64,000 bases of DNA, taken from positions 8,556,001-8,620,000 of the forward strand of contig NZ_CP118527.1 of assembly GCF_028885415.1 (NCBI RefSeq). Direction: 5' to 3'. Source of the stretch: Streptomyces coeruleorubidus. Lineage in GTDB: Bacteria > Actinomycetota > Actinomycetes > Streptomycetales > Streptomycetaceae. Within the stretch, counting starts at the first letter, position 1; each line of letters starts with the position of its first letter. The notes under the pieces are model-generated. The model did not search any database. It was not told where the DNA came from and saw nothing but the letters and a program-made list of their open reading frames with translations. Positions 43,301 to 59,351 of this stretch are shown here, piece after piece. Position numbers and translations under genes: made by a program.

Positions 43301-44590
43301 GCGAAACGCCGCCTGGACGCCGTGGGACGCCAACTCCCTCGCGTCCGAAGGGACCTTGCCGAGGTGCACGACCTGCGCGTACGGGCGGAGGAGGACGAGA
43401 GGGTGCGGCGCGAGACACTCGCCGCGCAGGAGGCCGAGGTGCTGGCCTGCGGCAGGAGACTGCGTACGGCGCTTTCGTTGCCGGGGGTGCTGAAGGGGGC
43501 GGGCCTCGAAGCCGACGCGGACGAAGGGGCCCTGAAGTCCCCGGACCCCGTCCATCACGACGTGGGGGAGCGCATCACAGTTCTGCGCCTGCTGGTCGAC
43601 GCCGTGCGCCGCGGTCTGGATGCCGAACGCCGTGACGTCTCCGACACCACCCTCCTCAACCGCCACACCGAACTGCGCGACCAGCTCTCCGGCGGCTACG
43701 ACGCGACGATGGAGGAACAGGACGGCATAAAACTGTGCCGGCTCGTCGACGACCACGGCCCGCACGACATCGTCGCGGTCGGCGAGCGCATCGCGGCCGA
43801 GGCCGCCGAGGCACGTGACCGTCTGACGGAGCGCGAACGCGAGGTCTTCCAGCGCTTCCTGACAGGAGAGCTGGGCGACCACCTGTCCTCGCAGGTGCTG
43901 GCCGCCGGAGCCCTGGTCGCCGCCCTCAACACCACGCTCGCCACGGTCCGTACGTCCCACGGCCTGGGCGTCACCCTCGACTGGAAGCTGGCCGAGGGAG
44001 TCGAAGCCGACGTCAAGGCGGCCGTCGACCTTCTGCGCAGCCCCTCCGGACTGCGCACCCGTGAGCAGTCCGAGCAACTCCGCGACGTCCTCCAGCGCCG
44101 CATCGAGGACGCCCGCCGCGCCGACCCGGCCGCCGGCTACGCGGCCCACCTGCGCACCGCCCTGGACTACCGTGACTGGTTCACCTTCACCCCCTGGGTG
44201 GTGAACGACGCGGCACCGGGCAGCCGTCGTAAACTCTCCGGCCGCACGGGACTGAGCCAGGGCGAACAGCGGGTCCTCTCCTACCTGGTCCTCTTCGCCG
44301 CGGCGGCAGCGCACTTCACCAGCCTCGCAGACGCAGCCCCTCACGCACCACGCCTGATCCTCCTCGACGACGCGTTCGCCAAGGTGGACGAGCCCACGCA
44401 TGCCCGCCTCGGCCGCATCCTGGTCGACCTCGACCTCGACTTCGTCCTGACCAGCGAGCGGCTGATCGGCAACTGGCCCGACGTACCATCCCTCCACATT
44501 TACGAGTGCCTGCGCGACCCGCATGTGCGGGGCGTGGCCACGCTCCACTACACATGGAACGGGCGGCAGCGGAGGCTGATGCCGGTATGA
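40382..44590 (+). CDS. jetC: JetC, Wadjet type II SMC-like ATPase (TIGR02680 family)
   Basis: This 1,402-residue SMC/MukB-like ATPase carries Walker A in LRGKNGAGKSKALEM near residue 40 and, at the C-terminus, the signature GLSQGEQRVLSYLVLF and Walker B LILLDDAFAKVDE. Between them are two long charged coiled-coil arms (rich in AEAR, EELRERE and RRREAE runs) flanking a central globular hinge region near residues 620-760. In Wadjet the SMC complex extrudes DNA loops and delivers small circular DNA to JetD for cleavage. Walker B has Asp-Asp where many SMC proteins have Asp-Glu; whether this is usual in the family I cannot check here. Confidence 0.92.
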   Translation: MNRPPAPHRYRLHRAGIRNVWQYDEQEFTFGEGRLLLRGKNGAGKSKALEMLLPYLLDGDARALDATGTGRTTLSWLMLDGFEQTNRLGYLWLEFARTDEEGDEHHLTVGVAIRASQSTKTAKPFFFTTGLRVGEGIDLAPTGRPLPVDQLKSLVGSENVTDRAVEHRAKVARELFGLTDPARYRNLLHLLHRLRRPTIGDRIDSGGLVSVLAETLPALDDEVVEKVARSLDDLDSVRAYLGRLERTDQALRTFLAGYRGYLHGALRRRTDQASGELEQLMEYRKSAGDAARRAEELREREQELRARIEALEGESGAAETDLAALHASAGYRSLKELGEKRATVTALHSAAATAFKAVRQAHSNQEEAGRRLTAEAGRLGEELVELSTAHGELMREAERSGIDPAHLGEPVATPAVPVAPATTTELTAPEGDLHVVGHSEVLAVDPEICTTALHAWGARLDAAQPVIRNRSRFVSELGALIERSNEAQRLAAEADATRERLEEQADHARAQAEQRRQETVREGEAYAVAVKTWSERLGNSTRVPLDAVLALVAHDPADGPLPARAPDEVVEAARSAVDPWLAELGAERDDLSLTVRELEAEHDRLRHRREEWERRTDPEPPPPSHRTAPRIPGTGAPLYRLVDFAHDLAPDARAGLEAALEASGLLDAWVRADGTVLDPATRDTLLVAGAPVAGATLARVLRPVAAPDTGVTAEQVERVLGAVVLAESHQLTGDGDPPAAAETGSHTAIGTDGSWRLGIARGRHAKQAAEYVGAEVRAETRRRALAELDRRLSDLDGELMERRHNLRKLTEHRDQIGDTLRRPPSPRGLTDAWARTAEAQSTAESLASQASTAAREAEQARARAVAARREAEATASAQGLPADPAALETVRVALDRLGQGTLRLRRRVHTVLSAADGHRDGRADYERAESARRDAESDYAEPFGRLEAARRTVRALEEALGATEQQVLAREAEAKRRLDAVGRQLPRVRRDLAEVHDLRVRAEEDERVRRETLAAQEAEVLACGRRLRTALSLPGVLKGAGLEADADEGALKSPDPVHHDVGERITVLRLLVDAVRRGLDAERRDVSDTTLLNRHTELRDQLSGGYDATMEEQDGIKLCRLVDDHGPHDIVAVGERIAAEAAEARDRLTEREREVFQRFLTGELGDHLSSQVLAAGALVAALNTTLATVRTSHGLGVTLDWKLAEGVEADVKAAVDLLRSPSGLRTREQSEQLRDVLQRRIEDARRADPAAGYAAHLRTALDYRDWFTFTPWVVNDAAPGSRRKLSGRTGLSQGEQRVLSYLVLFAAAAAHFTSLADAAPHAPRLILLDDAFAKVDEPTHARLGRILVDLDLDFVLTSERLIGNWPDVPSLHIYECLRDPHVRGVATLHYTWNGRQRRLMPV

Positions 44591-45885
44591 CAGGACGCGA
44601 ACGAGCCGACGCACACCGTCCGGACGCCGAAGCCCTCGCGTTCCTCACCCGGCCAAGCCTCACTCGCCTCTGGACGGCCGCACGCACCCGCCTGGAACGC
44701 AACGGCCTCCAACCGGCCGGAACCATCAGACTCCAGCACCTGGACGCACAAGAACGCGAGGCACTGTCCCTGCTCTTGGCCAGGCCGATCACCGGTGGCA
44801 CCGCCACGATCCGCCTGCCGGACCTGGACACCCGCCTGCGCGCCAGCGCGGTCGGGCAAGGTCTGGCTTCCACACTGGAGGAAATGGGCCCACCCCTGAC
44901 GGACCGCCGAGCGGTCCGCGACGCGGCGGCGGCAGAACGGGCCCGCTTGTGGTCGACGGCTCAGACCGAGGTGGACGCCACCTCGCTGTCGGGCCGGCCC
45001 TGGACGGCACAGTGGCTGGAGGAGATACGACGCGGCGGAACACTCGCCCGTCAGGATCCGCACACCGCGAACAGTGTGATCACTCAGGCCGTCCACACCC
45101 TGGCGACGCTCTTCCCCGGTACCGGACCACACCCCACCCCGGTCTCCTGGGGCCGTGCTGAACTGGCCACCCGAGCCACCGGCTCGGCCCACGGCCTCGA
45201 CGACGGCACGCTGCTGGCCCGGCTGGTCCTGCGCGGCATCGCACTGGCGTACGGTGTCGAGTCCCCCGCCGACGCGCCCGCGCGCCGCGCCCTGTGGCAC
45301 CTCGCCTCGGTCACTCCGGACGAGGTCTCCAGCACGGTGCTCGCGTACGGCCTGCGCCCCACCGGCGGCACTTGGCGGGAGGCCGCCCTCCGCGAACGCG
45401 CCGACCACCACATGGAAACCCACCTGACCCTGCGCGAACTGCGCACCCTGAGCCTGAAGATGCCGCCCGGTACCCGAGTCCACGTCTGCGAGAACCCACG
45501 CGTGGTCGAGGCAGCGGCCGGCACCGGCCGTTCGGCACCCCTGATCTGCACCTCGGGGAGCGCGACGACGGTCGTTCTCACCCTCCTGGACACGTTGGCC
45601 GCGTCCGGTTGCCGGTTCGCCTACCACGGTGACTTCGACTGGCCCGGCATCGCGCTGGCCAACCGGATCATGCAGCGGTACGGCGCCGGGCCGTGGCGCA
45701 TGCGAGCGGCCGACTACGAGTACCTCGCGACACGCACCCAGGCGCACGGCACACCACAGATCGCCCTCATCGGAACGCCGGCCGAGGCCGTGTGGGATGC
45801 GGAACTGGCCCCCACCATGGACGCCCTGGGCATCGCCCTGCACGAGGAGGCGGCGCTCGACCTGCTCCTGGAGGATCTCGGGTGA
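44587..45885 (+). CDS. jetD: JetD, Wadjet type II Toprim-like nuclease (TIGR02679 family)
   Basis: This 432-residue protein begins at the ATG overlapping the jetC stop (ATGA). Its C-terminal half has the topoisomerase VI-type Toprim fold: the metal Glu in VHVCENPRVVEAA near residue 300 and the DxD pair in YHGDFDWPGIALAN near residue 345. JetD is the endonuclease that cuts plasmid DNA after it is trapped by JetABC. The N-terminal part is helical (TIGR02679). All catalytic residues I can identify are present, so the system looks intact. Confidence 0.9.
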   Translation: MTGRERADAHRPDAEALAFLTRPSLTRLWTAARTRLERNGLQPAGTIRLQHLDAQEREALSLLLARPITGGTATIRLPDLDTRLRASAVGQGLASTLEEMGPPLTDRRAVRDAAAAERARLWSTAQTEVDATSLSGRPWTAQWLEEIRRGGTLARQDPHTANSVITQAVHTLATLFPGTGPHPTPVSWGRAELATRATGSAHGLDDGTLLARLVLRGIALAYGVESPADAPARRALWHLASVTPDEVSSTVLAYGLRPTGGTWREAALRERADHHMETHLTLRELRTLSLKMPPGTRVHVCENPRVVEAAAGTGRSAPLICTSGSATTVVLTLLDTLAASGCRFAYHGDFDWPGIALANRIMQRYGAGPWRMRAADYEYLATRTQAHGTPQIALIGTPAEAVWDAELAPTMDALGIALHEEAALDLLLEDLG

Positions 45886-45975: not shown

Positions 45976-47961
45976 TCAGATGTCCAGCCCACCTGCCGCA
46001 AGCAGGTCGGCCACGTCGCTCACCAGTCCTCTGCCCGTGCCCTCGGCATTGACGAGTTGCGCTTCGAAGGCCCTGAGGCTGCGAAAGACCTCGGCGTACG
46101 CTGCCTGTTCGTCAAGAGGGAGCTGCAGTACCTGGAGGCGCCGGACGTCGACCCGTGACGAACTGGAGGCATGAGTGCCTGCCTGACGTCCGTTGGAGGG
46201 TGCGCGCAGACAACCGGCGAGGAAGTGGGCGTCCAGTTTCGCCGGATCCACCCGCAGGGCGTAGAGCTGGGACCCCAGGGCCGTCGGAGGCCCTTCGTGC
46301 ACCCATGCCTTGAACGCACGCACGACACCGGCGACCACGACGTCGCCCTTCTCGGCGATCGCAGCCGCCGATTCGGTCGCGACGAGCCCGCTAGGAGTGC
46401 CGTCCGTCAGCAGGTCGGCAACGGTGAGGAGCGGCACGGATGCTTTGGCGGGCGCCGCTGTGCCCTCCAACGGCTGCTGCCCTGCGCGCAGCGACAGAGC
46501 ACCGGCCTTGGCGAGGTCTCCCACGCTGGCCGTGGTCTGCTGCCTGTCGGCATCGAACCTCAGTTCAGACAGACGCTGGGCTCGACTGGCCAGGTCGGTC
46601 AGCAACGTCTCCGCTTCTTTCCAGGCTGCCGCGAGTTCGAGGCCGGACGGCTCGGTGCTCACCGACGTGTAGCGCCCAGGGGTGACGTCCACCTCGTCGT
46701 CCAGGAGCTCGATGAGTGGAACACGGACGGCGCCGTCCGGCAGATCCGCGTCCGAGCGGTCGAGGGCTTCCAGCGCGGAGAGGACAAAGGCCTGGAGCGG
46801 GTCCCAGTGGGGGCCGGGTTCACGCGTGCCGGTTCTCGTGAAGCGCGTCGCGTCGACAAGAAGTGCGTCCTGGCCGGGCGGAACCGCACCCGGGCCGTCC
46901 GGAGCGGCTCTGAGGATCCATAGTTGGAGTGAGACGCTGTGCGGCTGGGCGCTGCCGGGCGGGAGTGCCACCACGGCTCGGAGCGCGCCGGTCCGCAGCA
47001 AGGAGCCTCGGATGCGTCGGCCGGCCTTGCGTGAGGCGACCGCGGGAGGCAGGACGACGACGGCTGCTCCGCCGGGCTTGAGATGGGCGAGCAGGTGTTG
47101 CACCCAGGCCAGTTCCGGCTCGGTCCGCGGAGGGAGACCATGGGTCCAGCGCTGGTCGGTGGCGAGTTCCTCGTATCCCCAGTCGCGCTCGTTGAAGGGA
47201 GGGTTGCAGAGGGCGATGTCTGCCCGCGCTCCGGTGAACGGGTCCTCGCGCAAGGCGTCCGCCGTGGCGATCTCCGTACGGACGTCGTGGTCGTCCCCGA
47301 CGAACGACAGTCTGGTGGAGGCCAGCGCGGCGAGGGCAGGGTCTCGCTCGCATGCCAGCACCACCAGGCCCGAACCCTTGCACTCCTGCACGGCAGCGGC
47401 CGCCAGGTGCCCCGTGCCGCAGGCCGGGTCGAGGACGGTGAGTTCCTCCTCGGGCTCGCCGATGTGGACGCCGAGCGCGATCCGCGCCATCAGGGCGGCG
47501 AGCGGCGGCGGCGTCGTGCTCAGCTGACGTACATGTGTCTCGAGCCACCGCTGGAGCAGGAACTCGAATGTCGCTCGCGCCCCTTCGTTCCGTCCCAGCT
47601 TCGCTGTCTCGACCACCAACTTCTCGGTGTCTGCGGTGAGTTCAACCCGTGAAGCGCGTGCGCGAGGGGAGCGCATGCGGCGGCCTGCCTCGGCGATGGC
47701 GAGGCCCGACTCGTCCCTGCTGCCCAGGGCTTCGAACCGGGGCCACAGGAGCTCGCGCCCGCCGATGTTGTCGAGCTTGCCGTTGTCCCTCAACCACTGC
47801 TCGACCTCCGCCAGTGAGAACTGGGGGCTGACATCCGTGCCGCCGATGCGCGTGGGGAAGGAGTCGTGGCGTCGCCGCCAGTTGCTCACCGCGGCACGCC
47901 CCACGCCGGCGATCCGAGCGATCTCGGCAAGGCTGACCGGTACGGAGCCGGTTGTACTCAT
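45976..47961 (-). CDS. HTH-containing N6-adenine DNA methyltransferase (HsdM-like)
   Basis: This 661-residue protein starts at the ATG at 47961; longer upstream in-frame starts run antisense through the kinase gene and are rejected. It begins with a helix-turn-helix (SLAEIARIAGVGRAAVSNWR, residues about 10-30). The methylase core has the AdoMet motif VLDPACGTGHLAAA and the catalytic NPPF in ALCNPPFNERDWGYE, placing it with N6-adenine methylases of the HsdM type. The C-terminal 200 residues resemble a specificity (target-recognition) region with a TVADLL segment and alternating helices, so modification and recognition seem fused. No restriction subunit follows it. It is divergent from two kinases and faces jetD tail to tail. 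Confidence 0.85.
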   Translation of the reverse strand: MSTTGSVPVSLAEIARIAGVGRAAVSNWRRRHDSFPTRIGGTDVSPQFSLAEVEQWLRDNGKLDNIGGRELLWPRFEALGSRDESGLAIAEAGRRMRSPRARASRVELTADTEKLVVETAKLGRNEGARATFEFLLQRWLETHVRQLSTTPPPLAALMARIALGVHIGEPEEELTVLDPACGTGHLAAAAVQECKGSGLVVLACERDPALAALASTRLSFVGDDHDVRTEIATADALREDPFTGARADIALCNPPFNERDWGYEELATDQRWTHGLPPRTEPELAWVQHLLAHLKPGGAAVVVLPPAVASRKAGRRIRGSLLRTGALRAVVALPPGSAQPHSVSLQLWILRAAPDGPGAVPPGQDALLVDATRFTRTGTREPGPHWDPLQAFVLSALEALDRSDADLPDGAVRVPLIELLDDEVDVTPGRYTSVSTEPSGLELAAAWKEAETLLTDLASRAQRLSELRFDADRQQTTASVGDLAKAGALSLRAGQQPLEGTAAPAKASVPLLTVADLLTDGTPSGLVATESAAAIAEKGDVVVAGVVRAFKAWVHEGPPTALGSQLYALRVDPAKLDAHFLAGCLRAPSNGRQAGTHASSSSRVDVRRLQVLQLPLDEQAAYAEVFRSLRAFEAQLVNAEGTGRGLVSDVADLLAAGGLDI

Positions 47962-48052
47962 CGACAGTCTCCGAGGTGCTGGGGGGCGCTTGCGTGCGGT
48001 GCCGGCGGTGGACGGGTCTGGCGGAGTGGCTTTGCATGAGAGGCTACTACGC

Positions 48053-48082
48053 TCATTGACAGTGTTCACAGTGCACATATCC
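48053..48082. promoter_or_regulatory. Divergent promoter/operator between methylase and kinase genes
   Basis: TTGACA (48056-48061) and TATCCG sit 16 bases apart and could be the kinase promoter. The spacer contains TGTTCACAGT (48063-48072). On the other strand the same region reads TGTGAACA, CT, then GTCAATG, facing the methylase. The decamer TGTTCACAGT recurs at 50450-50459 ahead of the helicase gene, again adjoining GTCAATG. The core TGTnnACA is palindromic, as expected of a dimeric regulator site. The methylase carries an N-terminal HTH and is a candidate regulator. Confidence 0.5.
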
Positions 48083-48117
48083 GGAATCGCCGTGTGGGAA
48101 GTGTGGAGGACGGGAGA

Positions 48118-49059
48118 ATGCAGAGATTTACGCCGGGAACGGTGCTCCTGGACCGCTACCAGCTCACATCGGTCCTCGGCCGTGGCCTGATGGGCCAGGT
48201 GTGGCAGGGGCGTGACCTGCGTCTGGAGCGGCCCGTGGCCGTGAAGACCGTGGCTGCGGACCTGCTCGCCGTCCCCCGGAGCCGGGATGAGGCGTTGCGG
48301 CGTTTCCAGCGGGAGGCGAAGGCCGCGGCGCGCCTGGACCACCCGAACACGACCACCGTCTTCGACGCGTCGATCACGGACGGTACATGCTGTCTGGTGA
48401 TGGAACTGATCGAGGGCACCACCCTTGAGTTCCTCTTCGACCAACAGGACGACGCACGGTTCGACGTCCCCACGGCCGCTGCTGTCGCAGCCCAACTGTG
48501 CGCCGGACTGTCCGCCGCCCACGCAGCCGGTCTCGTCCACCGTGACCTCAAGACCCAGAACGTCATGATCCGCAGGGACGGCGTCGTGAAGATCCTGGAC
48601 TTCGGACTGGTCAAGGTCCTGAGCGACGCCGACCCGCGTCTGACCATGACCGGTGAGAGCATCGGCAATATCGTGTGCGCCTCGCCCGAGCTGCTCTCCG
48701 GGCAAAGCCGGCTCGACGGGCGGAGTGACCTCTACGCGGTGGGCTGTCTGCTGCACCACATGCTCACCGGCGAGACCCCCTTCGTCACCGGCCAGCCGGC
48801 GCTGCTGGTCACGCATCACCTGACCTCTCCGCCGCCCGTGATGGCGGACTCGGGTCTCGACGCTCCGAGGGGCCTGCAAGAACTGGTCACCGCACTGCTG
48901 GCCAAGCGTCCGGACGACCGCCCCTCCTCCGCGGCCGAGGTGTACGCGGCCCTGGCCCCCTACCTGCCCGCTCCCTGCCCCGAGCTGGCCACCCGGCCCG
49001 GGCTCCCCGAGGACCCCCGTCGTCCCTTCCTGGTCCCGCAAGGGCCGAGCCTCGTGTGA
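48118..49059 (+). CDS. Soluble Ser/Thr protein kinase 1
   Basis: This 313-residue Hanks-type kinase has a glycine loop (LGRGLMGQVWQG), the Lys in RPVAVKTV, the catalytic loop VHRDLKTQNVMI, the Mg loop DFGLVK, and an activation segment ending CASPELL (Ser in place of the usual Ala-Pro-Glu). The catalytic set is complete. It lacks a transmembrane helix, PASTA repeats or any sensor domain; it ends soon after the kinase fold with a Pro-rich tail. The ATG at 48118 follows GGAGGACGGGAGA. The next kinase begins in its stop codon (GTGA). The position between two DNA methylases suggests a signalling role in defence rather than morphology. Confidence 0.85.
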   Translation: MQRFTPGTVLLDRYQLTSVLGRGLMGQVWQGRDLRLERPVAVKTVAADLLAVPRSRDEALRRFQREAKAAARLDHPNTTTVFDASITDGTCCLVMELIEGTTLEFLFDQQDDARFDVPTAAAVAAQLCAGLSAAHAAGLVHRDLKTQNVMIRRDGVVKILDFGLVKVLSDADPRLTMTGESIGNIVCASPELLSGQSRLDGRSDLYAVGCLLHHMLTGETPFVTGQPALLVTHHLTSPPPVMADSGLDAPRGLQELVTALLAKRPDDRPSSAAEVYAALAPYLPAPCPELATRPGLPEDPRRPFLVPQGPSLV

Positions 49060-50420
49060 GCAGTGAGAAAATGACCGTGCCGACCGGGGTGCGGGACCTC
49101 GACCGGGTCGCAGGGGAGCGAAGGGCGCCGCGGGCGCCGGGACTGGGGACGGGCGCGATGGGGCGAAGCCTTGGACAGTACGAACTCACGCGAGAGCTGG
49201 GCCGGGGCGGCATGGGCGTCGTCTGGGCGGCGTACGACCGGGAGCGTCACCGCGACGTCGCGGTGAAGCTCGTCGCGCCCCGCGCGGGCGGTGCGGAGTT
49301 CACGTCACTGGAGCGTCGCTTCCTTCGCGAGGCACGCCTCACCAGCCGCCTGAACCACCCCGGCATCCCCGCCGTCCACGACCACGGCAGCTACGAAGGC
49401 GAGCTCTACCTCGTCATGGACCTCATCCCCGGACGCGCCCTCGACGCCGTCCTCAAGAGCGAGGGCCCACTGCGCGTCGAGCACGCGGCGGACGTCGCCG
49501 GGCGTACGGCAGAGGTGCTCGCCTACGCCCACGCCCAGAACGTCGTACACCGTGACCTCAAGCCGTCCAACCTGATGATCACCCCGGACGACGACATCAA
49601 GGTTCTCGACTTCGGCGTCGCGGCCGCTCTGGATCCGCAACCCGGCGAGACCCGTTTCACCGCGGCGAACGCCACCCCCGGCACCGTGGTGTACATGGCC
49701 CCCGAGCAGGCCGTGGGCCAGACCGTGCCCGCCAGCGATCTGTACTCCCTGGGCTGCGTCCTCTATGAACTGCTGACCGGGGACCCGCCCTTCACATCCG
49801 GAAGCCCGTTCATGCTCTACCACCAGCACGCGCACGAGCCCGTGCCTGCGCTCGACGAGCGCCGCTCCGGCATCCCGTCCGGACTGCGGGAGCTGGTGGA
49901 GGCGCTCCTGGAGAAGAAGCCGGAGAACCGGCCCGCCTCCGCGGCCGAAGTGGCCACACGAGCAGCCGCCTGGGCGCCCGCCCCGGCACGCCCCTCGGTA
50001 CCGAGAATTCCGCATCCCCGGCTGGCGGAGATCGACCGGCTTCGCCAGTCGGGCCAGCCCGCTCGCGCCCTGCGGGAGTACGGCGATCTCCTGGCCGGTG
50101 CCGACCTCGGACGAGCGGACTTACTTGCCGCCCGGGCCGGACACGCCCTGTGCGTGGGCGTCCTCGGCCGTACCCGCGAGGCGCTGGACGAGCTGAAGTC
50201 GGTCCTCGCGGAGCAGCGCAGCCTCCTGGGGCCGGACGATGCCGGGGTTCTGGGCACGCGGTACGAGATCGCCGTGCTGCTGGCTCGCGCGGGCGAACGC
50301 CACGCGGCCACGGAGCTGCTGAAGCGCCTCGCGGACGACGAGGACCGGATCCTGCCCGACACAGACCCACGGCACGGCCGGGCCCGCGCTCTGCTGGACC
50401 GGCTTCGCCGCATCGCGTGA
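49056..50420 (+). CDS. Soluble Ser/Thr protein kinase 2 with helical C-terminal extension
   Basis: This 454-residue protein has an unstructured N-terminus of about 40 residues, then a full kinase domain: LGRGGMGVVWAAYD, VAVKLV, VHRDLKPSNLMI, DFGVAAAL, GTVVYMAPEQ. It is followed by about 130 residues of paired helices (RQSGQPARALREYGDLLAG, GRTREALDELKSVLAEQ, AGERHAATELLKRLADD) resembling TPR units for protein binding. There is no membrane segment. The start is taken as the GTG overlapping the kinase 1 stop; ATG 49071 is an alternative. It is co-translated with kinase 1. The helicase gene follows after 135 bases with its own probable promoter. Confidence 0.85.
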   Translation: MSSEKMTVPTGVRDLDRVAGERRAPRAPGLGTGAMGRSLGQYELTRELGRGGMGVVWAAYDRERHRDVAVKLVAPRAGGAEFTSLERRFLREARLTSRLNHPGIPAVHDHGSYEGELYLVMDLIPGRALDAVLKSEGPLRVEHAADVAGRTAEVLAYAHAQNVVHRDLKPSNLMITPDDDIKVLDFGVAAALDPQPGETRFTAANATPGTVVYMAPEQAVGQTVPASDLYSLGCVLYELLTGDPPFTSGSPFMLYHQHAHEPVPALDERRSGIPSGLRELVEALLEKKPENRPASAAEVATRAAAWAPAPARPSVPRIPHPRLAEIDRLRQSGQPARALREYGDLLAGADLGRADLLAARAGHALCVGVLGRTREALDELKSVLAEQRSLLGPDDAGVLGTRYEIAVLLARAGERHAATELLKRLADDEDRILPDTDPRHGRARALLDRLRRIA

Positions 50421-50440
50421 CCCAGCCCGAGGCGATGTTT

Positions 50441-50481
50441 TGTAATCTCTGTTCACAGTCAATGTTGCGGTGTTACGCTGC
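50441..50481 (+). promoter_or_regulatory. Probable promoter of the helicase-methylase operon
   Basis: The 135-base gap after kinase 2 is less GC-rich than its surroundings at its left end. It contains TGTTCACAGT (50450-50459) running into GTCAATG, the element shared with the methylase/kinase divergent region. TTCACA and TACGCT 16 bases apart could serve as -35 and -10, which would place the shared element over the -35. The helicase start lies about 75 bases further on, behind AGGGGA. Confidence 0.45.
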
Positions 50482-50555
50482 CACCGCCCCGTCCGGAGGG
50501 GAGACAGGACACTGTCTACGGACGGTCGCAGGAGACACCGAGGGGAACAGCGCCC

Positions 50556-53500
50556 ATGACGTCAACAGCTCAGCGCGAGACCGAGCGGACGGGGGCCGAG
50601 CAGCTCCCTGAGGAGGGCAACCTCGTCGAGGTGCGCGGGCAGTCCTGGGTGGTCGCCCGCGTCGAGCCGTCTCCGGCCCGTGACGGCGCCGAGGAGCGCA
50701 GGCCCGCCACCCTCGTCCACCTCCAGTCCGTCGCCGACGGCCGCTTCGGAGACACCCTCTCCGTCATCTGGGAGGTCGAACCCGGCCGCCGCGTCCTGCC
50801 CGCCGGCTCCCTCCCCGACGCCTCCACCGGCGCCTACGACTCCCCGAGCCGCCTCGCCGCCTTCCTCGACGCCGTCCGCTGGTCCGCCGTCGCCTCCGCC
50901 GATGCCAAGACCCTCCAGGCCCCGTTCCGCTCCGGCGTCGCCGTGGAGCCGTACCAACTGGAGCCGGTCTCCCGCGCCGTCGGCGCTCCCCGCGTCAACC
51001 TCCTCCTCGCCGACGACGTCGGCCTCGGCAAGACCATCGAGGCCGGCCTCGTCGTCCAGGAGTTGCTGCTGCGTGGCCGCGCCCGGCGCACCATGGTGGT
51101 CTGTCCGGCCGGCCTCACCCTCAAGTGGCGCGACGAGATGGCGGAGAAGTTCGGCCTGGAGTTCACCATCGTCGACTCCGAGCACTGCGCCCGCCTGCGC
51201 CGCACCCACGGCACGGCCGCGAACCCCTTCCGCGTCCACCCCCTCACCATCGTCTCCCTCCCCTGGCTGCGCGGCCAGAAGGCCCAGCGCCTCCTCGACG
51301 AGGTCATCGGCGCCCCCGAGGAGAGCCCCGACGGCGAGCACAAGCGCTTCTTCGACCTGCTCGTCCTCGACGAGGCCCATCACGTCGCGCCCGCCGCACC
51401 CAAGCAGGTGTACGCGGTCGACTCCCAGCAGACCAAGCTGATCCGTCGCCTCGTCCCGCACTTCGAGCACCGCCTCTTCCTGTCCGCCACCCCGCACAAC
51501 GGCTATCCCGAGTCGTACACCGCGCTGCTCGAACTCATCGACGACCAGCGTTTCGCACGCGGCGTGGACCCCGACAAGGAAGCGCTTAAGGACACCGTCG
51601 TACGCCGCTTGAAGTCGACGGTCACCAACGCCGACGGCACACCCCGCTTCCGCACGCGCAAGACCCTCGAACTCTCCGTCGACTACACGCCGCAGGAGCG
51701 CGAGATCCACCAGCTCCTCGGGGAGTTCGCCGAGCTGCGCCGCAAGAAGCTGACGCCCAAGGCCCGAGGCGGCCGCCGCGCAGCCGACCTGGTGACCCTG
51801 CTGCTGAAGAAGCGCCTGTTCTCCTCCCCGGCGGCCTTCTTGCACACGGTCCAGGTCTACCTGTCCCACCTGGAGGACACCGGCCCGGCGCGGGGGCGCT
51901 CGGCAGCGGCCGAAGTCCCGGAGTGGCTGGAGGAGTTCGCGGACCTGGTCGCCGACCTCGACGACACGGGTCTGGTCGACGCGGAGGACGACGCGCTCAC
52001 CCGCTCGACCTCGCTCACTCCGGCGGAGGACGGCCAGGAACTCGACCTGTTGCAGCGGATGGAACGCTGGGCGCTCACCCATGAGGCCGCACCCGACTCC
52101 AAGGCAGAGGCAATGATCCGCGAGATCAAGGCCATCTGCCGACCGGACGGCAAGAGGTGGACCAACGAACGGGTCGTCGTCTTCACCGAGTATCGCGACA
52201 CGCAGGAGTGGCTGTACGACCTCCTCCAGCAGGAGGAACTCACCGACGGAGGCCGCGTCGAACGCCTCCACGGCGGCCTGTCCACCGAGGAACGCGAGCG
52301 CATCCGCCTCGGCTTCCAGACCGAGCCGACCCGCGAGGAGGGCAAGGTCCGCATCCTGCTCGCCACCGACGCCGCCGGCGAGGGCATCGATCTCCAGAAC
52401 CACTGCCACCGCCTGATCAACTACGACATCCCCTTCAACCCCAACAAGCTCGAACAGCGCATCGGCCGTATCGACCGCTGGGGCCAGAAGAAGGACCCGG
52501 AGATCACCCACTTCATCGGATCCGGCTGGCAGCATGCCCAGGCCGGCTCCTACGAGGCCGACCTCGAGTTCCTCTCCCGCGTCGCCAAGAAGGTCGCGCG
52601 CATGGAGCACGATCTCGGCTCCGTCAACGCCGTCCTCGCCGATGCCGTGCAGCGCCGGATGACCGGCGACACGGCGCCCGTCGACATCGAGAACGCCAAG
52701 CCGAAGCCGATCAAGGGCCGCCGCACGGGCGGCGAGGTCGCGCCGGAGCAGAACGTCACGGCCCAGACGAAGAAGCTCGCCGACCAGTACGAGGAGACGG
52801 TGAGCGTCCTCGGCCTCACCCCGGCCAATGTCAAGCGGGTCGTGGACACCGCCCTGGCCCTCGACCACCAGCCGCCGCTCCTGCCCTCCACGGTCCGCGC
52901 CGAGGACTTCGAGCCGGGTGACCTCTTCGAGGTGCAGCCCTTGTCCGGCAGCTGGGAGCGGGCGACCCGGGGCCTTGCCCACAAGCTCCGCGAGGGCGAG
53001 CAGCGACCGCTCACGTTCTCCCCGACGGTCGCCGCGCACGGCAGGGACGACGTCGTCCTCGCCCACCTCAAGCATCCGCTGGTGGCCCTCTCCACGCGCC
53101 TGCTGACCGCCGCCGTGTGGAACGCCGACCAGATGGACCTGAACCGCGTCACCGCCGTCGTCTCCGACGACCCGGCCGTCACCACGACGCTCGTCTCCGC
53201 GTACGCGCGGTATGTCCTCGTCGGCACGGACGGCACTCGCCTGCACGAGGAAGTCCTGTACGCCGGCGGCTGGTTCGGCGACACGGGCCGCTTCCGACGC
53301 TGGGAGTCGGTCGGCGAACAGGGCAGGGTCCTGTCCAGGGCACTCACCGAGGGAGCCGAGGCTGCCCCGCACCTGCGCAAGGAACTCACCGAGGCTTGGC
53401 CGAAGTTGCGGGACCCTCTCTACCGGTCCCTGGAGGCCCGTGCCGCCGAGCTCGGCCGCCAGCTGGAGAGCAGGCTCGCGGACCGCCGAACGGAGGAGGA

Positions 53501-53795
53501 GCGCCGCATCACGGCCACCCTCGACCGCTTCGAGGCGACTCTGCGCGCCAAGCTCAAGGAGGAGGGCGACGGCGAGGGCGAACAGCTGGCCCTCCTCTCC
53601 ACCCACGAGCTGACGGGCCACGAGCGCCGCCAGTTCGAGGACGACCGCCGCCGCTGGCAGGAACGCCTCGAAGGCCTCCCCGCCGAGCGCGACCGCGAAC
53701 TCGCCGCCATCGCCGCCCGCTACCGCGAGCCCCGCTCCCATCTCTTCCCCGCCGCCGTCGTCTTCGTGATCCCCGCAAAGGAAGCCCGCCGATGA
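50556..53795 (+). CDS. DrmD-like SNF2-family helicase
   Basis: This 1,079-residue superfamily 2 DNA translocase has motif I DDVGLGKTIEAG near residue 157, motif II LVLDEAHHVAP, motif III FLSATPHNG, and in the second RecA lobe motifs V/VI ATDAAGEGIDLQ and QRIGRIDRWGQ. A C-terminal extension of about 400 residues ends in a charged helical stretch. Domain order and length fit DrmD, the SNF2-like helicase of class 1 DISARM. DrmD is normally beside drmMI and the drmABC core; only the methylase partner is here. The stop overlaps the methylase start (ATGA), so the two are tightly coupled. It probably moves along unmodified DNA; that is inferred from family. Confidence 0.87.
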   Translation: MTSTAQRETERTGAEQLPEEGNLVEVRGQSWVVARVEPSPARDGAEERRPATLVHLQSVADGRFGDTLSVIWEVEPGRRVLPAGSLPDASTGAYDSPSRLAAFLDAVRWSAVASADAKTLQAPFRSGVAVEPYQLEPVSRAVGAPRVNLLLADDVGLGKTIEAGLVVQELLLRGRARRTMVVCPAGLTLKWRDEMAEKFGLEFTIVDSEHCARLRRTHGTAANPFRVHPLTIVSLPWLRGQKAQRLLDEVIGAPEESPDGEHKRFFDLLVLDEAHHVAPAAPKQVYAVDSQQTKLIRRLVPHFEHRLFLSATPHNGYPESYTALLELIDDQRFARGVDPDKEALKDTVVRRLKSTVTNADGTPRFRTRKTLELSVDYTPQEREIHQLLGEFAELRRKKLTPKARGGRRAADLVTLLLKKRLFSSPAAFLHTVQVYLSHLEDTGPARGRSAAAEVPEWLEEFADLVADLDDTGLVDAEDDALTRSTSLTPAEDGQELDLLQRMERWALTHEAAPDSKAEAMIREIKAICRPDGKRWTNERVVVFTEYRDTQEWLYDLLQQEELTDGGRVERLHGGLSTEERERIRLGFQTEPTREEGKVRILLATDAAGEGIDLQNHCHRLINYDIPFNPNKLEQRIGRIDRWGQKKDPEITHFIGSGWQHAQAGSYEADLEFLSRVAKKVARMEHDLGSVNAVLADAVQRRMTGDTAPVDIENAKPKPIKGRRTGGEVAPEQNVTAQTKKLADQYEETVSVLGLTPANVKRVVDTALALDHQPPLLPSTVRAEDFEPGDLFEVQPLSGSWERATRGLAHKLREGEQRPLTFSPTVAAHGRDDVVLAHLKHPLVALSTRLLTAAVWNADQMDLNRVTAVVSDDPAVTTTLVSAYARYVLVGTDGTRLHEEVLYAGGWFGDTGRFRRWESVGEQGRVLSRALTEGAEAAPHLRKELTEAWPKLRDPLYRSLEARAAELGRQLESRLADRRTEEERRITATLDRFEATLRAKLKEEGDGEGEQLALLSTHELTGHERRQFEDDRRRWQERLEGLPAERDRELAAIAARYREPRSHLFPAAVVFVIPAKEARR

Positions 53796-56700
53796 GCCCC
53801 CGCCGCCCGATGAGCCGTGGAGTAGCCGCCGCCAAGGCCCAGGCCGCCGACGGCCGCCGGCAGCACCAGGAGTGGCTGGACCTCACCGAGGTCTCCGGCC
53901 CCTTCCTGACCATGCCCGTCCTGCTGAGGGCCTGGCCTCAGCTCGACGCCCTGGAGAAGGACGAACGGGCCAGGCTGCGCGCCCGCCACGCCGACTGGCA
54001 GACGGACACGACGGCCGGCCGCGACGAGTGGGTGGCGTACGTCCTGGGCCGGCTGCTGGGCTGGGAGGACGCGCTGACGTTCCGCCAGGGCGAGTCCGAG
54101 CACCACGGCCTGGACCGCCTGACCCTGCGGGTGGCCGAGCACAACACCGAGGTGCGCCCTGACTTCGCGCTGGTCGAACCCGGTGCGGATCTCGCGGTCG
54201 AGCCGGACGTGGAGTCCGCGGCCAAGCGGGTGCGACTGCTCGGCATGACGGTCCCGGCCGGCACGGCTCCGACCGCCCGCGCGGGCGGAGGCGGCGACTG
54301 GTCCGCGGCCCCGGCCGACCGCCTGGCCCGCCTCCTGCGCCACCACGGCGTACCGCTCGGCCTCGTCACGGACGGCCGCTGGTGGTGCCTGGTCTGGGCC
54401 CCGCTGGGCGGCGTCACGACCACGGCCGTCTTCGACGCGATCGGCTGGAACGAGGCGGCGGAGCGGAACGTCGTCCGCGCGTTCGTGTCCCTGCTGCGCC
54501 GCCGCCGCTTCTTCGAGTACGACGACGCCGAGACCTTGGCCGGCTTGCTCAAGGCCAGCCTCGCGGCAGGCGAGGACGTCACCGAGGCGCTGGGCATCCA
54601 GGTCCGACAGGCGGTGGAACTCCTCGTCGACGCCATAGGGCGAGCGGACGTGCGCGCGGTCGAGCACGGGACGCCGGGCCTGCACGCGTCGGGCGTGAGC
54701 GCGGGGGAGGTCTACCGGGGCGCGGTAGCGGTCATGATGCGCATCGTCTTCCTCCTGTTCGCGGAGGAGCGCGGCCTGCTCCCGGCGGACAACGAGGTGT
54801 ATGCGCGGTCCTACTCCGCCCGCTTCCTGCGCGACGAGCTGAAGGCGCGAGCGGACGAGGAGGGCGAGACGTCGCTGGAACACACGACGTCGGCGTGGCA
54901 CCGCCTGATCGCCCTGTTCCACGCGGTGCACGGGGGAGTGGACCACCCGGGCTCCGGCTTCCACCTTCCGGCGTATGACGGATCGATCTTCGATCCGGAG
55001 AGGTACCCGTGGCTGGAGCGCACGACGCCGCTCCTCCCCATCGACGACCGCACGGTCCTGCACATGCTCCAGGCGGTGCAGGAGGTCCGCGTCGGCAAGG
55101 GCAAGGATCGCGAGGTCCGCACGCTCAGCTTCCGTGCGCTGGACGTCGAGCAGATCGGGTACGTGTACGAGGGCCTGCTGTCGTTCGACGGGCGGCGGGC
55201 GACGGAACACATGGTGGGACTGATCGGCCCGGAGGGCCTGGAACACGAGGTCCCGCTGCGGGAGTTGGAGTCGCTGGCGGCGAAGGCCAGCGGTTCGCTG
55301 AAGACGCTGGCGAAGTCCATCCACGACAAGTGGAAGGACCCCAAGCCCCCGGCGACGGCGGGCCAGTTGGAGAAGAAGCTCGCCCCGCTCGGGGCGGAGG
55401 AGTCGGCCGAGGCGCGCCGCCGCCTGAACGCGGTGACGAAGGACGCGGCGCTCACGGAGAGGCTGCTGCCCTTCGTCGGCATCCTGCGGGAGGACCTGCG
55501 GGGCCTGCCGACGGTCATCCCGAACGGCGCCCTGTATGTCACGGAGTCGTCGCTGAGGAAGAACACGGGCACGCATTACACGCCCCGCTTCCTCGCGGAG
55601 GAGGTCGTGCTGCACGCGCTGGAACCGCTGGTGTACGAGCCGGGGCCGCTCCAGACGGCGGACACAGGGGAATGGCGCCTGAAGTCCGCTGACCAGATCC
55701 TGGACCTGAAGGTCGCGGACATCGCGATGGGTTCGGCGGCGTTCCTGGTGGCGGCGTGCCGTTACTTGGCGGACCGTTTGATCGAGGCGTGGGAGGCCGA
55801 GGGCCGCGCGGACGCGATGGCGTACCGGGCGGGTCGCGCGGTGGACGTGGTGACGGCGGCGGACGCGGAGCAGGACCCGGTGGTGGTCGAGGCCCGGCGT
55901 CAGATCATCGAGCACTGCCTGTACGGGGCGGACATCAATCCGATGGCCGTGGAGATGGCCAAGCTGTCGCTGTGGCTGGTGTCGATGGACCCGGGGCGGC
56001 CGTTCACGTTCCTGGACGACCGGTTGGTCGCCGGGGACTCGCTGCTGGGTGTGCACAGCATGGAGCAGATCCAGTCCGTGCACATGAAGCCGGGGCAGCA
56101 GGCCGACATCCTGGCTGAGCAGGCGCGGCAGTTGGTGGATCAGCTGACGCAGGAGCGTCTGGCGATCACCGCCATTAAGGGCGTCGACCTGCCGGCGCTT
56201 CAGGAGAAGCGTGAGCGGCTGGAGGAGGTCAACCGGCACTCTCGGCGGCTGCGGCTGGTCGGTGACTTGATTGCGGGGGCTGCGCTGGCGACGTGTGCGT
56301 CGGGACGGGTGCCGTGGTACAAGGAGGAGGGCGGGGAGAGGGTTCGAGACCTATTCCCACGGGCTGCGTGGATCGTACGGCAGATCGTGGGGGATGGGGT
56401 CGAGGACGACTCTGAGGTGGTTCAGGAGGCTCGGGCGACCGCTGAGGAGTGGCTGGCGGCGGAGCTGCCGGAGGGGGCGCTGGAGCGGCGGCCTGTGCAT
56501 TGGCCGTTGGTTTTTCCGGAGGTATTTTCCCTTAAAGATGGGTTTGATGCGATCGTGGGGAACCCGCCGTTCCTCGGAGGTAAGAAACTTACGAGTGCGC
56601 TGGGTGAAGCTTACCGCGAATTCATGGTCGATTTCTTGGCTAGCGGGAGACGAGGAAGCGCTGATCTGGTTGCCTACTTTGAATTGCGGGCGCATGGGCT

Positions 56701-58123
56701 ACTCAATCGCGCCGGGCAAACTGGTCTAATTGCTACAAACACTCTGGCGCAGGGTGACTCGCGCGAGGTTGGCCTTGATCAACTAGTATCCGCTGGCGTT
56801 ACCATTCGAAGAGCCATTAAGAGTGCCCCCTGGCCTTCGAGTTCGGCAGTGCTTGAATATTGCGCGGTGTGGACGACGAAGCTGCCACTGCAGGTGGAGT
56901 CTGTGTGCGCTCTCGGTGACGCAATTGTGGTTAATGGAATTTCGACGTCACTTAATCCGGCAACCCGAGAATCTTCTTGGGCGGAACGACTGGCCAGAAA
57001 CGTCGGTAAATCCTTCCAAGGCTCTTTGGTCCTGGTTATTGATGGGTTTAGCGTATCGGAATCAGAGGCTCGGAGTTGGATTCAGGGGGATGGCCGCTAT
57101 GCCGAGGTCCTGGCACCCCTTCTTAACGGGCAGGACCTCAATGCGAGTCCGACCTGTCAAGGTGACCGCTGGGTGATTAATTTTCACGAGTGGTCAGAGG
57201 AGAAGGCTAGGAGTTACCCCAAGGCATTTGCCAAGCTATTGGAGGATGTGAAGCCAGAGTGTGAAAAGAAGGATCCGAAGTCCTATGCTGGATTGATGGA
57301 TCATTGGTGGCAGTACTGGCGGCCGCGTGGTGAGATGACGCGTGCTCTGCGCGATCTGTCCCGCTGTATCGTGCTCACGAGGGTGAGTAAATCTGTCATG
57401 CCGGTCATGGTGCCAACAGGGCAGGTATTTTCCGACAGGCTGGTTGTGTTCACCTCTGATGATCCGGGGCTACTTGCGGTACTTAGCGGCGCTTCGCATT
57501 ATTGGTGGGCGCTGGATCGTAGCGCCACGATGAAGGCGGACCTGCTTTACAGTCCAAGCGATGTATTTGATCCCTTGGTCCGCCCAGCTTCCTCAAAAAA
57601 TCTTCGTGTGATCGGCGCGCGTCTCGACGAGTATCGCCGTGACTTGATGATCGCCCGCAATATGGGTCTTACTGCCACCTACAACTTGGTGCACGACCCC
57701 GACTGCAATGACGAAGACATCGTTGAACTGCGGCGCATCCATGAGAGGATCGATAAGGCCACGGTCGAGGCGTACGGCTGGCATGATCTCTTGGACGAAT
57801 CTGGCCAGACCCCGGCTGCCGATCCGACCCACCAGACGTTCCCGCTCGACCACGGTTTCCACGAGACCGATCAGGGCGTCCGCTATACCATCGGCATGCT
57901 CGCTCGCACCGAGATCATCGACCGGCTCCGGCAGTTGAACCACCAGGCGTACGCCGACGAGGTTCACCTCGGCCTGCACAAGGGGGTGACGGAGAAGAAG
58001 GCGAGGGAGAAGCACCCCGACCTGCCCCCGCCTTCCCCTGAGGCCGTTCGGAAGCGCAAGGAGCAGTTGGCTGCGCGAGGTGGTTCGGATTTCGGTGAGG
58101 GCGTCGAGGGCGCCCTCTTCTGA
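53792..58123 (+). CDS. DrmMI-like giant N6-adenine DNA methyltransferase
   Basis: The product is 1,443 residues. The N-terminal 550 residues contain a restriction-like or scaffold region (FALVEPGADLAVEPDV and a helical domain). The AdoMet motif is VADIAMGSAAFLVAACRYL near residue 645 and a second pocket motif is ADINPMAVEMAKLSLWL. The catalytic NPPF is in DAIVGNPPFLGGKK near residue 925. A target-recognition region follows, and a conserved tail ending GVTEKKAREKHPDLPPPSPE. The layout resembles Eco57I/PglX/DrmMI methylases, which mark adenine in self DNA. The stretch coding for the region after NPPF (about 56520-57740) is clearly richer in A/T-ending codons than both flanks. The start is fixed by the ATGA overlap with the helicase. 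Confidence 0.87.
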   Translation: MSPRRPMSRGVAAAKAQAADGRRQHQEWLDLTEVSGPFLTMPVLLRAWPQLDALEKDERARLRARHADWQTDTTAGRDEWVAYVLGRLLGWEDALTFRQGESEHHGLDRLTLRVAEHNTEVRPDFALVEPGADLAVEPDVESAAKRVRLLGMTVPAGTAPTARAGGGGDWSAAPADRLARLLRHHGVPLGLVTDGRWWCLVWAPLGGVTTTAVFDAIGWNEAAERNVVRAFVSLLRRRRFFEYDDAETLAGLLKASLAAGEDVTEALGIQVRQAVELLVDAIGRADVRAVEHGTPGLHASGVSAGEVYRGAVAVMMRIVFLLFAEERGLLPADNEVYARSYSARFLRDELKARADEEGETSLEHTTSAWHRLIALFHAVHGGVDHPGSGFHLPAYDGSIFDPERYPWLERTTPLLPIDDRTVLHMLQAVQEVRVGKGKDREVRTLSFRALDVEQIGYVYEGLLSFDGRRATEHMVGLIGPEGLEHEVPLRELESLAAKASGSLKTLAKSIHDKWKDPKPPATAGQLEKKLAPLGAEESAEARRRLNAVTKDAALTERLLPFVGILREDLRGLPTVIPNGALYVTESSLRKNTGTHYTPRFLAEEVVLHALEPLVYEPGPLQTADTGEWRLKSADQILDLKVADIAMGSAAFLVAACRYLADRLIEAWEAEGRADAMAYRAGRAVDVVTAADAEQDPVVVEARRQIIEHCLYGADINPMAVEMAKLSLWLVSMDPGRPFTFLDDRLVAGDSLLGVHSMEQIQSVHMKPGQQADILAEQARQLVDQLTQERLAITAIKGVDLPALQEKRERLEEVNRHSRRLRLVGDLIAGAALATCASGRVPWYKEEGGERVRDLFPRAAWIVRQIVGDGVEDDSEVVQEARATAEEWLAAELPEGALERRPVHWPLVFPEVFSLKDGFDAIVGNPPFLGGKKLTSALGEAYREFMVDFLASGRRGSADLVAYFELRAHGLLNRAGQTGLIATNTLAQGDSREVGLDQLVSAGVTIRRAIKSAPWPSSSAVLEYCAVWTTKLPLQVESVCALGDAIVVNGISTSLNPATRESSWAERLARNVGKSFQGSLVLVIDGFSVSESEARSWIQGDGRYAEVLAPLLNGQDLNASPTCQGDRWVINFHEWSEEKARSYPKAFAKLLEDVKPECEKKDPKSYAGLMDHWWQYWRPRGEMTRALRDLSRCIVLTRVSKSVMPVMVPTGQVFSDRLVVFTSDDPGLLAVLSGASHYWWALDRSATMKADLLYSPSDVFDPLVRPASSKNLRVIGARLDEYRRDLMIARNMGLTATYNLVHDPDCNDEDIVELRRIHERIDKATVEAYGWHDLLDESGQTPAADPTHQTFPLDHGFHETDQGVRYTIGMLARTEIIDRLRQLNHQAYADEVHLGLHKGVTEKKAREKHPDLPPPSPEAVRKRKEQLAARGGSDFGEGVEGALF

Positions 58124-58137
58124 GCCGTCGGCATGAC

Positions 58138-58180
58138 AACGGGCTCGCTCACGTCAGCCCAAGTGACCTGAGCGAGCCCG
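58138..58180. terminator. Strong bidirectional terminator hairpin
   Basis: ACGGGCTCGCTCA (58138-58150) and TGAGCGAGCCCGT (58168-58180) form a perfect 13-bp stem. The loop carries a further GTCA/TGAC pairing. TCTCTTT follows on the plus strand. It lies 14 bases after the methylase stop and 12 bases before the stop of the convergent regulator, closing the defence module. Confidence 0.85.
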
Positions 58181-58192
58181 TCTCTTTGCGCC

Positions 58193-59281
58193 CTACCGCG
58201 TCGCGAGCGCCACGAACGCGGCCCACCTGTCACGGCTGACCCGCAGTACCGGTCCCACGCTCGGCGCCTTGGAGTCCCGTACGTACACGGCGTCCTGGTC
58301 GGCGGCCACCTCTACACAGTCGCCACCGTCTGACCCGCTGTAGCTGCTCTTGAACCAGCGCAGCCCGCCTCCGTTGTCGGTCACCTGCTCCATGCTCATG
58401 TCTCTCCCGCCCAGCCGTTCGATGAGCCGCGCAGACTCCTCGACGTTCAGGGCCTGCGATCGCAGCTTGCCATAGCGCAAGGCGAATGCGCTTACGTCGG
58501 CAGGATCTTGCACGACACACCCGACGCCTTGTGACTCAAAGTATCCGAGCTGCCGATGCTCCTTCGACTCCGCGACCACGAACGGACCGTTCTTGCCCGG
58601 GTGGAACCCCCGCCCGGCAGGCATGACCTGTACCTCGACGTTCCGCAACGTGCTTACCTCCAGCAGTCGTTGCAACTGCCCGCGCATCACCTCAGCGTCG
58701 CCCACCGGATCGCGCAACGCCTCCTCCCCGATGATGAACGACAACTCCGCCATAGGTACCCGCGTCAGCAGCTTCTGCCGACTCAGCCGCGCCTCCGTGT
58801 GCTGGTCGATGATCTCCTCGCTCAGTGGCGGACAGTGCCCGGCGAACACAGCCCGCGCGTACCCCTCCGTCTGCAACAGTCCCGGCACCAGCAGCGGGTC
58901 GTACGAGAACCGGCTCACCACCTCCGCCTCGATGAGCGCGAAGTTGCGGAAGAAGCGCGGCAGTTTCGCCCGGTCCACCTCGTCCTGAAGCACTTCCAGG
59001 ACGCCCCGCGCCTCCAGCACTCTTTCCGCCGCCGCGGTGAACGCCGCCTTCGCCGGCCGCCGCCCCTGCTCGACCGAGGCGACCTGCTCCAGCGAATAGC
59101 CGATCGAGTCCCCGAGCTGCTGCTGATTCAACCCGGCCCGCTTACGCAAATGCTGGAGCAGCACACCGTACGCCGACCACACACCCGGCAGATCGGGCCC
59201 CTCCTCCTTCGTCTTCGCCGCGCGACCATTCCGCGTGTCCCGTACGTCCCGTCCCGTCCTCACACCGCCACGCCCTTCCAT
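58193..59281 (-). CDS. HTH-DUF5753 regulator fused to DUF397
   Basis: The product is about 362 residues. It has a helix-turn-helix (LRKRAGLNQQQLGDSIGYSLEQVASVEQG, residues about 45-75, split here by family knowledge of the XRE fold), then a DUF5753 domain (PGLLQTEGYARAV, RLSRQKLL, LQVMPAG-like VQVMPAG). Its C-terminal 65 residues are a DUF397 domain (WFKSSYSGSDGGDCVEVA, VRDSK). In Streptomyces these are usually two adjacent genes, acting as WhiJ-type regulator and small partner; here they are one reading frame. ATG 59281 is used; GTG 59296 is possible. It is divergent from an ATPase gene across an array of GTAC repeats. Confidence 0.85.
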   Translation of the reverse strand: MEGRGGVRTGRDVRDTRNGRAAKTKEEGPDLPGVWSAYGVLLQHLRKRAGLNQQQLGDSIGYSLEQVASVEQGRRPAKAAFTAAAERVLEARGVLEVLQDEVDRAKLPRFFRNFALIEAEVVSRFSYDPLLVPGLLQTEGYARAVFAGHCPPLSEEIIDQHTEARLSRQKLLTRVPMAELSFIIGEEALRDPVGDAEVMRGQLQRLLEVSTLRNVEVQVMPAGRGFHPGKNGPFVVAESKEHRQLGYFESQGVGCVVQDPADVSAFALRYGKLRSQALNVEESARLIERLGGRDMSMEQVTDNGGGLRWFKSSYSGSDGGDCVEVAADQDAVYVRDSKAPSVGPVLRVSRDRWAAFVALATR

Positions 59282-59351
59282 CCCGCTCCGCACCACGCCG
59301 CCGGGGCATGTTCAACGCAGCTCGCAGGAAACGGGACACGCCTCGGGGCCT

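Follow-up and report, generated by a model that had tools for sequence, protein, structure and literature searches.

The window discussed here is a 64,000-nucleotide stretch of the Streptomyces coeruleorubidus genome (contig NZ_CP118527.1, positions 8,556,001 to 8,620,000). Within it lies a cassette of five genes: a DNA methyltransferase with a helix-turn-helix (HTH) domain, called MT, which diverges from two protein kinase genes, K1 and K2, followed by drmD and drmMI of class 1 DISARM (defence island system associated with restriction-modification). Two copies of a 15-bp sequence, a putative operator, stand in the promoter regions of these genes. The features are as follows, in coordinates of the window.

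45976-47961, minus strand: MT, an N6 DNA methyltransferase with a winged HTH, a type I HsdM-like core and an HsdS-like part
48055..48069, minus strand: operator copy 1, GTGAACACTGTCAAT, in the divergent MT/K1 promoter region
48118-49059, plus strand: K1, a soluble Ser/Thr protein kinase (Pfam Pkinase, 140 bits)
49056-50420, plus strand: K2, a Ser/Thr protein kinase (Pfam Pkinase, 169 bits)
50442..50458, plus strand: operator copy 2, GTAATCTCTGTTCACAG, a variant form before drmD
50556-53795, plus strand: drmD, SNF2-type helicase of class 1 DISARM (NCBIfam NF038317, 1366 bits against a cut-off of 610)
53792-58123, plus strand: drmMI, N6-adenine methylase of class 1 DISARM (PADLOC DrmMI, PDLC02643, 1739 bits)
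58139-58181: a 43-nt terminator hairpin between drmMI and a convergent XRE/DUF5753 gene

An earlier note, made from the letters of the window alone, had given these names and nearly these coordinates, and the Pfam, NCBIfam and PADLOC scores on all five genes bore it out. It had also described overlapping kinases, an overlapping helicase-methylase pair, two units with MT divergent and a strong closing terminator, and these observations stood. The overlaps are 4 nt each. Since 135 bp separate K2 from drmD, K1-K2 and drmD-drmMI probably form two units. The hairpin after drmMI is a real terminator: it has a z of -5.35, and none of 200 shuffles folded equally well. The K1 frame is open from 48094, and the chosen ATG is preceded by GGAGG. 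The C-terminus of K2 gave a weak TPR match (TPR_12, under its cut-off).

MT has its winged HTH at residues ~8-62 and the core motifs DPACG at residue 178 and NPPF at 253. It matches Pfam N6_Mtase with 98.6 bits, and in PADLOC it matches MTase_I, with a weak mad1 match at the HTH and a weak Specificity_I match near the C-terminus. An AlphaFold2 model (mean predicted local distance difference test score, pLDDT, of 82) had type I M and S subunits as its Foldseek matches, and a winged HTH, a type I M core and an S-like part can be recognised in it. The MT reading frame stays open to 49041; the true start was placed at 47961 because of the homologues, the HTH, the start codon and the presence of K1 on the other strand.

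A protein search provided 73 DrmD loci, which were used to evaluate whether these genes travel together, as the earlier note had proposed. K1-K2-drmD-drmMI are found in the same order and on the same strand at 26 of the 73, and at 24 of those 26 MT lies divergent beside K1. The two others are L059, where MT is co-oriented, and L017, where it lies ~10 kb upstream, outside the fetched stretch. Two further loci on short contigs (L005, L050) carry part of the same arrangement. Since order and orientation are kept at this many loci, chance was ruled out, and the flanks of the cassette vary from locus to locus. The kinase-bearing drmD loci form one clade in a quick maximum-likelihood DrmD tree (Shimodaira-Hasegawa approximate likelihood ratio test, SH-aLRT, 100). 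That tree omits L065, where drmD is reduced to its first 400 residues and too short. By a simple pattern test, the kinase catalytic motifs are intact in K1 at 25 of the 26 loci and in K2 at 23. In a genus sample of 295 Streptomyces genomes, the cassette was found in 12, all with close DrmD, MT, K1 and K2 (the DrmD a fragment in G084). Carriage by phages or plasmids was unsupported: no MT relative was confirmed in viral contigs, and no K1 match was found in plasmids at E 1e-80.

Class 1 DISARM is made up of drmD, drmMI, drmA, drmB and drmC. The earlier note had seen no drmA, drmB or drmC, which is correct for the window and incorrect for the genome: drmA starts 16.5 kb past the window end (8620000) and 22.0 kb downstream of the cassette. 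The genes are as follows, in genome coordinates.

8636460, same strand as drmD-drmMI: drmA (PADLOC DrmA, 986 bits)
~8640284, same strand as drmD-drmMI: drmB (PADLOC DrmB, 236 bits)
8642170-8642925, same strand: drmC (80% identity by tblastn to the DrmC of G196, which itself scores 374 bits in PADLOC)

All five class 1 DISARM genes are therefore present in this genome, on one strand, in the order drmD, drmMI, drmA, drmB, drmC. DrmA and DrmB were sought with profiles that each drew on eight loci, almost all outgroups, and both were present in 29 of the 29 sampled Streptomyces genomes with DrmD (E 1e-100). All 12 cassette genomes have drmA, drmB and drmC. In ten of these drmABC lies downstream of drmMI on the same strand, across a gap of 1.7 to 37.2 kb; in the two others, the drafts G098 and G031, it is on a different contig from the cassette. 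With a 22.0-kb gap the genes here do not form a single contiguous operon, and contiguity was not treated as defining DISARM because gaps of ~0-9 kb also occur at six other DISARM loci of Streptomyces. Because drmABC is present in all 12 cassette genomes, the unit was read as class 1 DISARM in full, interrupted by other genes. Judged by gene content and order, the five genes are the upstream half of that system, and the other half lies past the window.

The DISARM core genes are thus the same here as in other class 1 systems; what differs is the split across 22 kb, the HTH-methylase, the two Ser/Thr kinases and the repeated operator. In the portion of the DISARM literature available (PMC9142583), unnamed auxiliary genes are mentioned, none of them an HTH-methylase, a kinase or an operator, and drmC, a PLD nuclease, is reported as dispensable.

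The operator is a 15-bp quasi-palindrome, GTGAAC-NNW-GTCAAY. Between MT and K1 it takes the form GTGAAC-NNN-GTCAAY, and before drmD a more symmetric form, GTRANC-NNN-GTTCAC. The strict MT/K1 form is present in 24 of 24 divergent MT/K1 regions. The drmD form is present at 22 of the 26 loci, with perfect six-base arms at six (L017, L018, L019, L059, L066 and L070); near variants are found at L012, L014 and L015, and none at L065. A scan of the window alone with TGTTCACAGT was not significant (2 found, 1.2 expected, as many in 33 of 100 shuffles), and the significance of the operator comes from its conservation instead. Across the whole genome (9.41 Mb) the loose motif has 10 matches; an A or T as third spacer base occurs in 3, operator copy 1 among them, all in this island. 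The drmD form GTRANCNNTGTTCACAG has a single match in the genome. Altogether the operator stands at four promoter regions across 32 kb.

Whether the operator also precedes drmA was set down as a test before looking, and it was found there in 12 of 12 cassette genomes. The islands of those genomes were then scanned over 443 kb, in stretches that mostly exclude the MT promoter (counted separately), giving 29 strict sites: 12 before drmA, 8 before a superfamily 1 (SF1) helicase-nuclease gene (m10), 3 between the cargo genes m8 and m9, 2 before m17, 2 before m40, 1 at MT and 1 unnamed. The reversed pattern gave 0 sites, and 200 permuted half-site patterns gave a mean of 0.01 and a maximum of 1. 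Six other DISARM islands (207 kb) contained no strict operator; in one of these, G109, where the only kinase is K2-like, a looser site precedes drmD. Across the genus, TGTGAACNNWGTCAAYG was counted 59 times, in 33 of the 295 genomes, and its reverse not at all. Among the matches listed, the motif is present in 28 of 36 genomes with MT and in 5 of 259 others (Fisher 5e-27), and the 54 sites in those MT genomes fall within 2.3 kb of MT (25), between 2.3 and 60 kb on the same contig (22) or elsewhere (7). One family of putative operators was thus found at MT/K1-K2, at drmD-drmMI, at drmA-drmB-drmC and at some cargo genes.

Two related observations were made outside the cassette genomes. In G288 an operator precedes a drmC match (L203:6237-6568), no drmD was found in the genome and no drmA or drmB was recognised in the stretch; this is possibly a decay remnant of a split DISARM. 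In two Frankia-family loci (L043, L071), GTGAAT-N3-GTTCAC palindromes lie ~150-170 bp before drmD, with no HTH-methylase matched nearby.

The candidate reader of the operator is MT. The operator accompanies MT where DISARM was not found, at MT-only loci and at pPIWI-RE loci; in the latter a variant is also found between a kinase and a PD-(D/E)XK gene. Degenerate forms occur upstream of MTs of 34-45% identity. In an alignment of 40 MTs, HTH residues 12-31 are the most conserved 20-amino-acid window; the C-terminal part of MT is more variable, so a constant operator fits a constant HTH. By sequence and model, MT combines an N-terminal HTH with a quasi-palindrome in its own promoter region. M.SsoII and Ecl18kI are likewise methyltransferases with an N-terminal regulatory region and a 15-bp quasi-palindrome in their own promoter region, and the N-terminal region of M.SsoII binds that site and represses its own gene (PMC3978073, in the part available). 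In contrast to these, MT is not a C5-cytosine methylase: it is of the N6 type (N6_Mtase) and type I-like, with its own specificity part, and its site stands at several distant promoters. We infer from the analogy that MT binds the operator through its N-terminal HTH, autoregulates and controls the island. Repression would be the most likely effect, given that the operator is found in promoter regions and that the M.SsoII precedent represses.

Based on these results, the segment seems to be half of a class 1 DISARM with kinases and MT, in an island whose modules are linked by the operator and in which MT reads it. We give this reading a probability of roughly three in four. Several observations weigh against it. 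The set of MT genomes is drawn from the matches listed, counting those that start within the first 10 residues and reach at least 380 bits; among them, 8 of the 36 lack the strict motif, with degenerate copies seen in five of the 8, those whose upstream regions were read. Five genomes have the motif and no such MT, four of them sharing the spacer CGA. The seven sites away from MT comprise three on draft contigs with drmA or cargo, one before an m40 relative and three that are unexplained. The three island sites between m8 and m9, in three genomes, have no downstream gene on their strand. The drmD half-site is a variant, and 4 of 26 loci lack even its strict form. The rule of A or T as third spacer base was set after the matches in this genome had been seen, and was then tested genus-wide. 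Finally, K1 relatives (68-70% identity) occur with UvrD-like and DruE-like helicase relatives, without MT or operator, at four loci (L136, L139, L149, L150), three of which also have a relative of a GmrSD_N protein; domains were identified in L150 only, and in the others by clustering.

The operator might be bound by another protein, either the XRE/DUF5753 regulator or an unlinked host regulator, with the HTH of MT serving target choice only. The XRE gene adjoins the cassette in many loci, and the five motif-bearing genomes without MT at the 380-bit limit (among the matches listed) fit this view. Against it, two loci (L006, L016) keep the operator without an XRE match in the fetched stretch, operator presence tracks MT both genus-wide and in islands where no DISARM was found, and the HTH is the best conserved segment of MT, all of which makes an outside reader quite unlikely. 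The sign of the control is a separate matter, and here a different answer is possible, if somewhat the lesser bet: the operator may be the site of a MerR-like activator, between -35 and -10, or may serve timing, so that after transfer methylation comes before restriction, rather than act as a brake that unmarked DNA releases. A TANNNT element lies 8 bp after the operator in 32 of 45 MT-type sites, and 4-5 bp after it in 10 of 29 drmA and cargo sites, positions that fit either sign. That C-proteins control restriction-modification systems speaks for this view; against it, the closest precedent, M.SsoII, represses its own gene (both in the available part of PMC3978073).

The proposal of the earlier note was that the five genes are a self-contained system in which the two methylases mark DNA, DrmD scans it and the kinases relay the response, with no need of drmABC. 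Conserved order speaks for it (24 loci with all five genes, 26 with K1-K2-drmD-drmMI), and a drmABC up to 37 kb distant could be a separate resident. Yet drmA carries the same operator as the cassette in 12 of 12 genomes, only 1.7 kb separates drmMI from drmA in G084 (though its drmD is broken), and the sampled genomes with DrmD have DrmA and DrmB without exception. The same note had held that the genes would not be one system if the kinases or MT had unrelated neighbours in most genomes while the helicase pair travelled alone or always with drmABC. Constant company of drmABC, one arm of that test, is what was found, and MT and K1-like kinases also occur beside pPIWI-RE, UvrD-like and DruE-like genes. 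The self-contained reading is largely refuted, and we consider it very improbable. The kinases could also be the effectors themselves, causing abortive infection through phosphorylation of host proteins, with DISARM as a co-resident. K1 and K2 match the PADLOC PD-T4-6 kinase models (266 and 295 bits), a set named after a single-gene anti-phage kinase, and the K1 relatives at the four loci above lie beside UvrD-like and DruE-like genes without MT or operator. Those models also match other kinases here, among them K0 and m24, and K1 and K2 share the operator with DISARM and stay with drmD throughout one clade, so we regard this as rather unlikely.

Returning to the operator-linked island, the neighbours of MT and of the kinases suggest what part these genes play in it. 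At six loci (L018, L019, L065, L066, L070, L072) a single HTH-methylase stands between pPIWI-RE with a kinase, K0, and K1-K2-DISARM. In three genomes a K1-like kinase (42-46% identity) accompanies a DruE-like gene with an operator between them. Judging by the K1 relatives at the four loci that have neither MT nor operator, the kinases are not bound to DISARM alone; they look like a recurrent partner of defence modules (K1/K2 with DISARM, K0 with pPIWI-RE, m24, and the kinase beside DruE-like genes). The association of MT and K1-like kinases with other defence modules suggests that they belong to a common layer of control or accessory functions and do not form a closed five-gene machine. In Streptomyces, pPIWI-RE (Ppr) loci have members of this HTH-methylase family beside them, together with its operator and a kinase; their effectors are different. 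The 2013 description of pPIWI-RE, in the part available, has an HTH fused to some restriction endonuclease proteins and no methylase gene in its triads (PMC3702460).

Other known systems with similar ingredients were evaluated and rejected. In the methylation-associated defence system (MADS), mad1 is an HTH protein, mad2 a methylase and mad6 a kinase. Here mad1 and mad2 are matched weakly and mad6 in its kinase domain, and the scores stay far below the NCBIfam cut-offs (MAD2, 29 bits against 720; MAD6, 161 against 460). Type 2 bacteriophage exclusion (BREX type 2/Pgl) was rejected on PglW (K2, 93 bits against 990) and BREX_2 PglX (drmMI, 18 against 400), and the BREX_1 PglX model gave drmMI 41 bits against 500. 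PglZ and PglY were not among the best matches of the open reading frames scanned; no genome search was made for them. No published DISARM operator or kinase-bearing DISARM was found in the open-access literature searched, and the 15-bp operator marking DISARM halves, kinases and other defence genes looks new. Dedicated regulators of defence loci have been described: RptR, with a conserved site, for a composite defence island of E. coli (PMC12255303) and BrxR for a BREX locus (PMC9122589). Those are, in the available parts of these papers, separate regulator proteins, whereas here the regulator is likely the methylase itself.

DrmMI was examined by alignment. Its first 840 residues are mostly >85% identical to the window in close relatives; amino acids ~840-1320 are 35-85% identical to the window and have a GC content of 55-62%. 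This divergence and low GC were read as repeated exchange of the target-recognition part, which suggests that specificity has been swapped repeatedly. DrmMI was rejected as a nuclease: no conserved PD-(D/E)xK was seen by eye in 27 aligned N-terminal parts. No solved structure was matched by sequence search.

Several other features were noted around the cassette. The XRE/DUF5753 regulator, convergent with drmMI, is common beside the cassette. A type II Wadjet system directly adjoins MT, and one also adjoins the one-kinase DISARM of G109. As a member of the unit it was rejected: besides the window it is present at only 2 of 26 cassette loci (fetched flanks, ~5 kb left of MT), with the operator absent there. 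The DISARM gap of this genome holds m24, a 757-amino-acid kinase, and, just past the window, the MerR protein listed below; m8 lies on the same stretch, L155.

58193-59296, convergent with drmMI: XRE/DUF5753 regulator whose own C-terminus carries a DUF397 domain
60508-61278: HNH_2 protein, also with a weak Mrr_N domain; it is likely another restriction gene among the cargo
37429-45885: complete Wadjet type II (JetABCD2), without operator
18544-29463: open frame of 3639 aa, very long and with a strong bias typical of coding sequence
L155:8127-9269, in this genome just past the window: fusion of a MerR HTH with a DNA polymerase III beta-clamp domain
L155:12324-14924: m8, a GmrSD-type enzyme with a C-terminal O6-methylguanine-methyltransferase-like DNA-binding domain

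A mechanism can be proposed for the island. The level of MT would set, through the operator, how strongly MT itself, the kinases, DISARM and the cargo are expressed, and MT and DrmMI would mark host DNA. Entry of unmarked DNA, or of the island into a new host, would draw MT off its operators, and the freed promoters would open together. DISARM would then attack the unmarked DNA, and the kinases would adjust or execute the response. In its widest form, MT would be a methylation-gated master switch, with one operator at DISARM, the kinases, the SF1 helicase-nuclease and pPIWI-RE; unmethylated DNA would titrate it, and the systems would switch on together, each with its own kinase. This extension is tentative and we hold it somewhat doubtful. 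If true, the island would be an inducible regulon that reads self and non-self, and new modules would join it by gaining the 15-bp operator.

The DISARM core itself is ordinary. Its interruption by other genes is unusual, as are the two kinases beside it and a putative operator that would bind several defence modules into one regulon centred on a methylase. Tens of kilobases can separate the halves of a DISARM, and a system seen only in part can then be mis-filed, as at the edge of this window. Defence islands are usually read as loose sets of independent systems. Here a 15-bp site marks the genes that form a group, over 30 kb and in systems unrelated to one another, and with it island membership, the presence of kinases next to DISARM and the timing of defence become directly testable.

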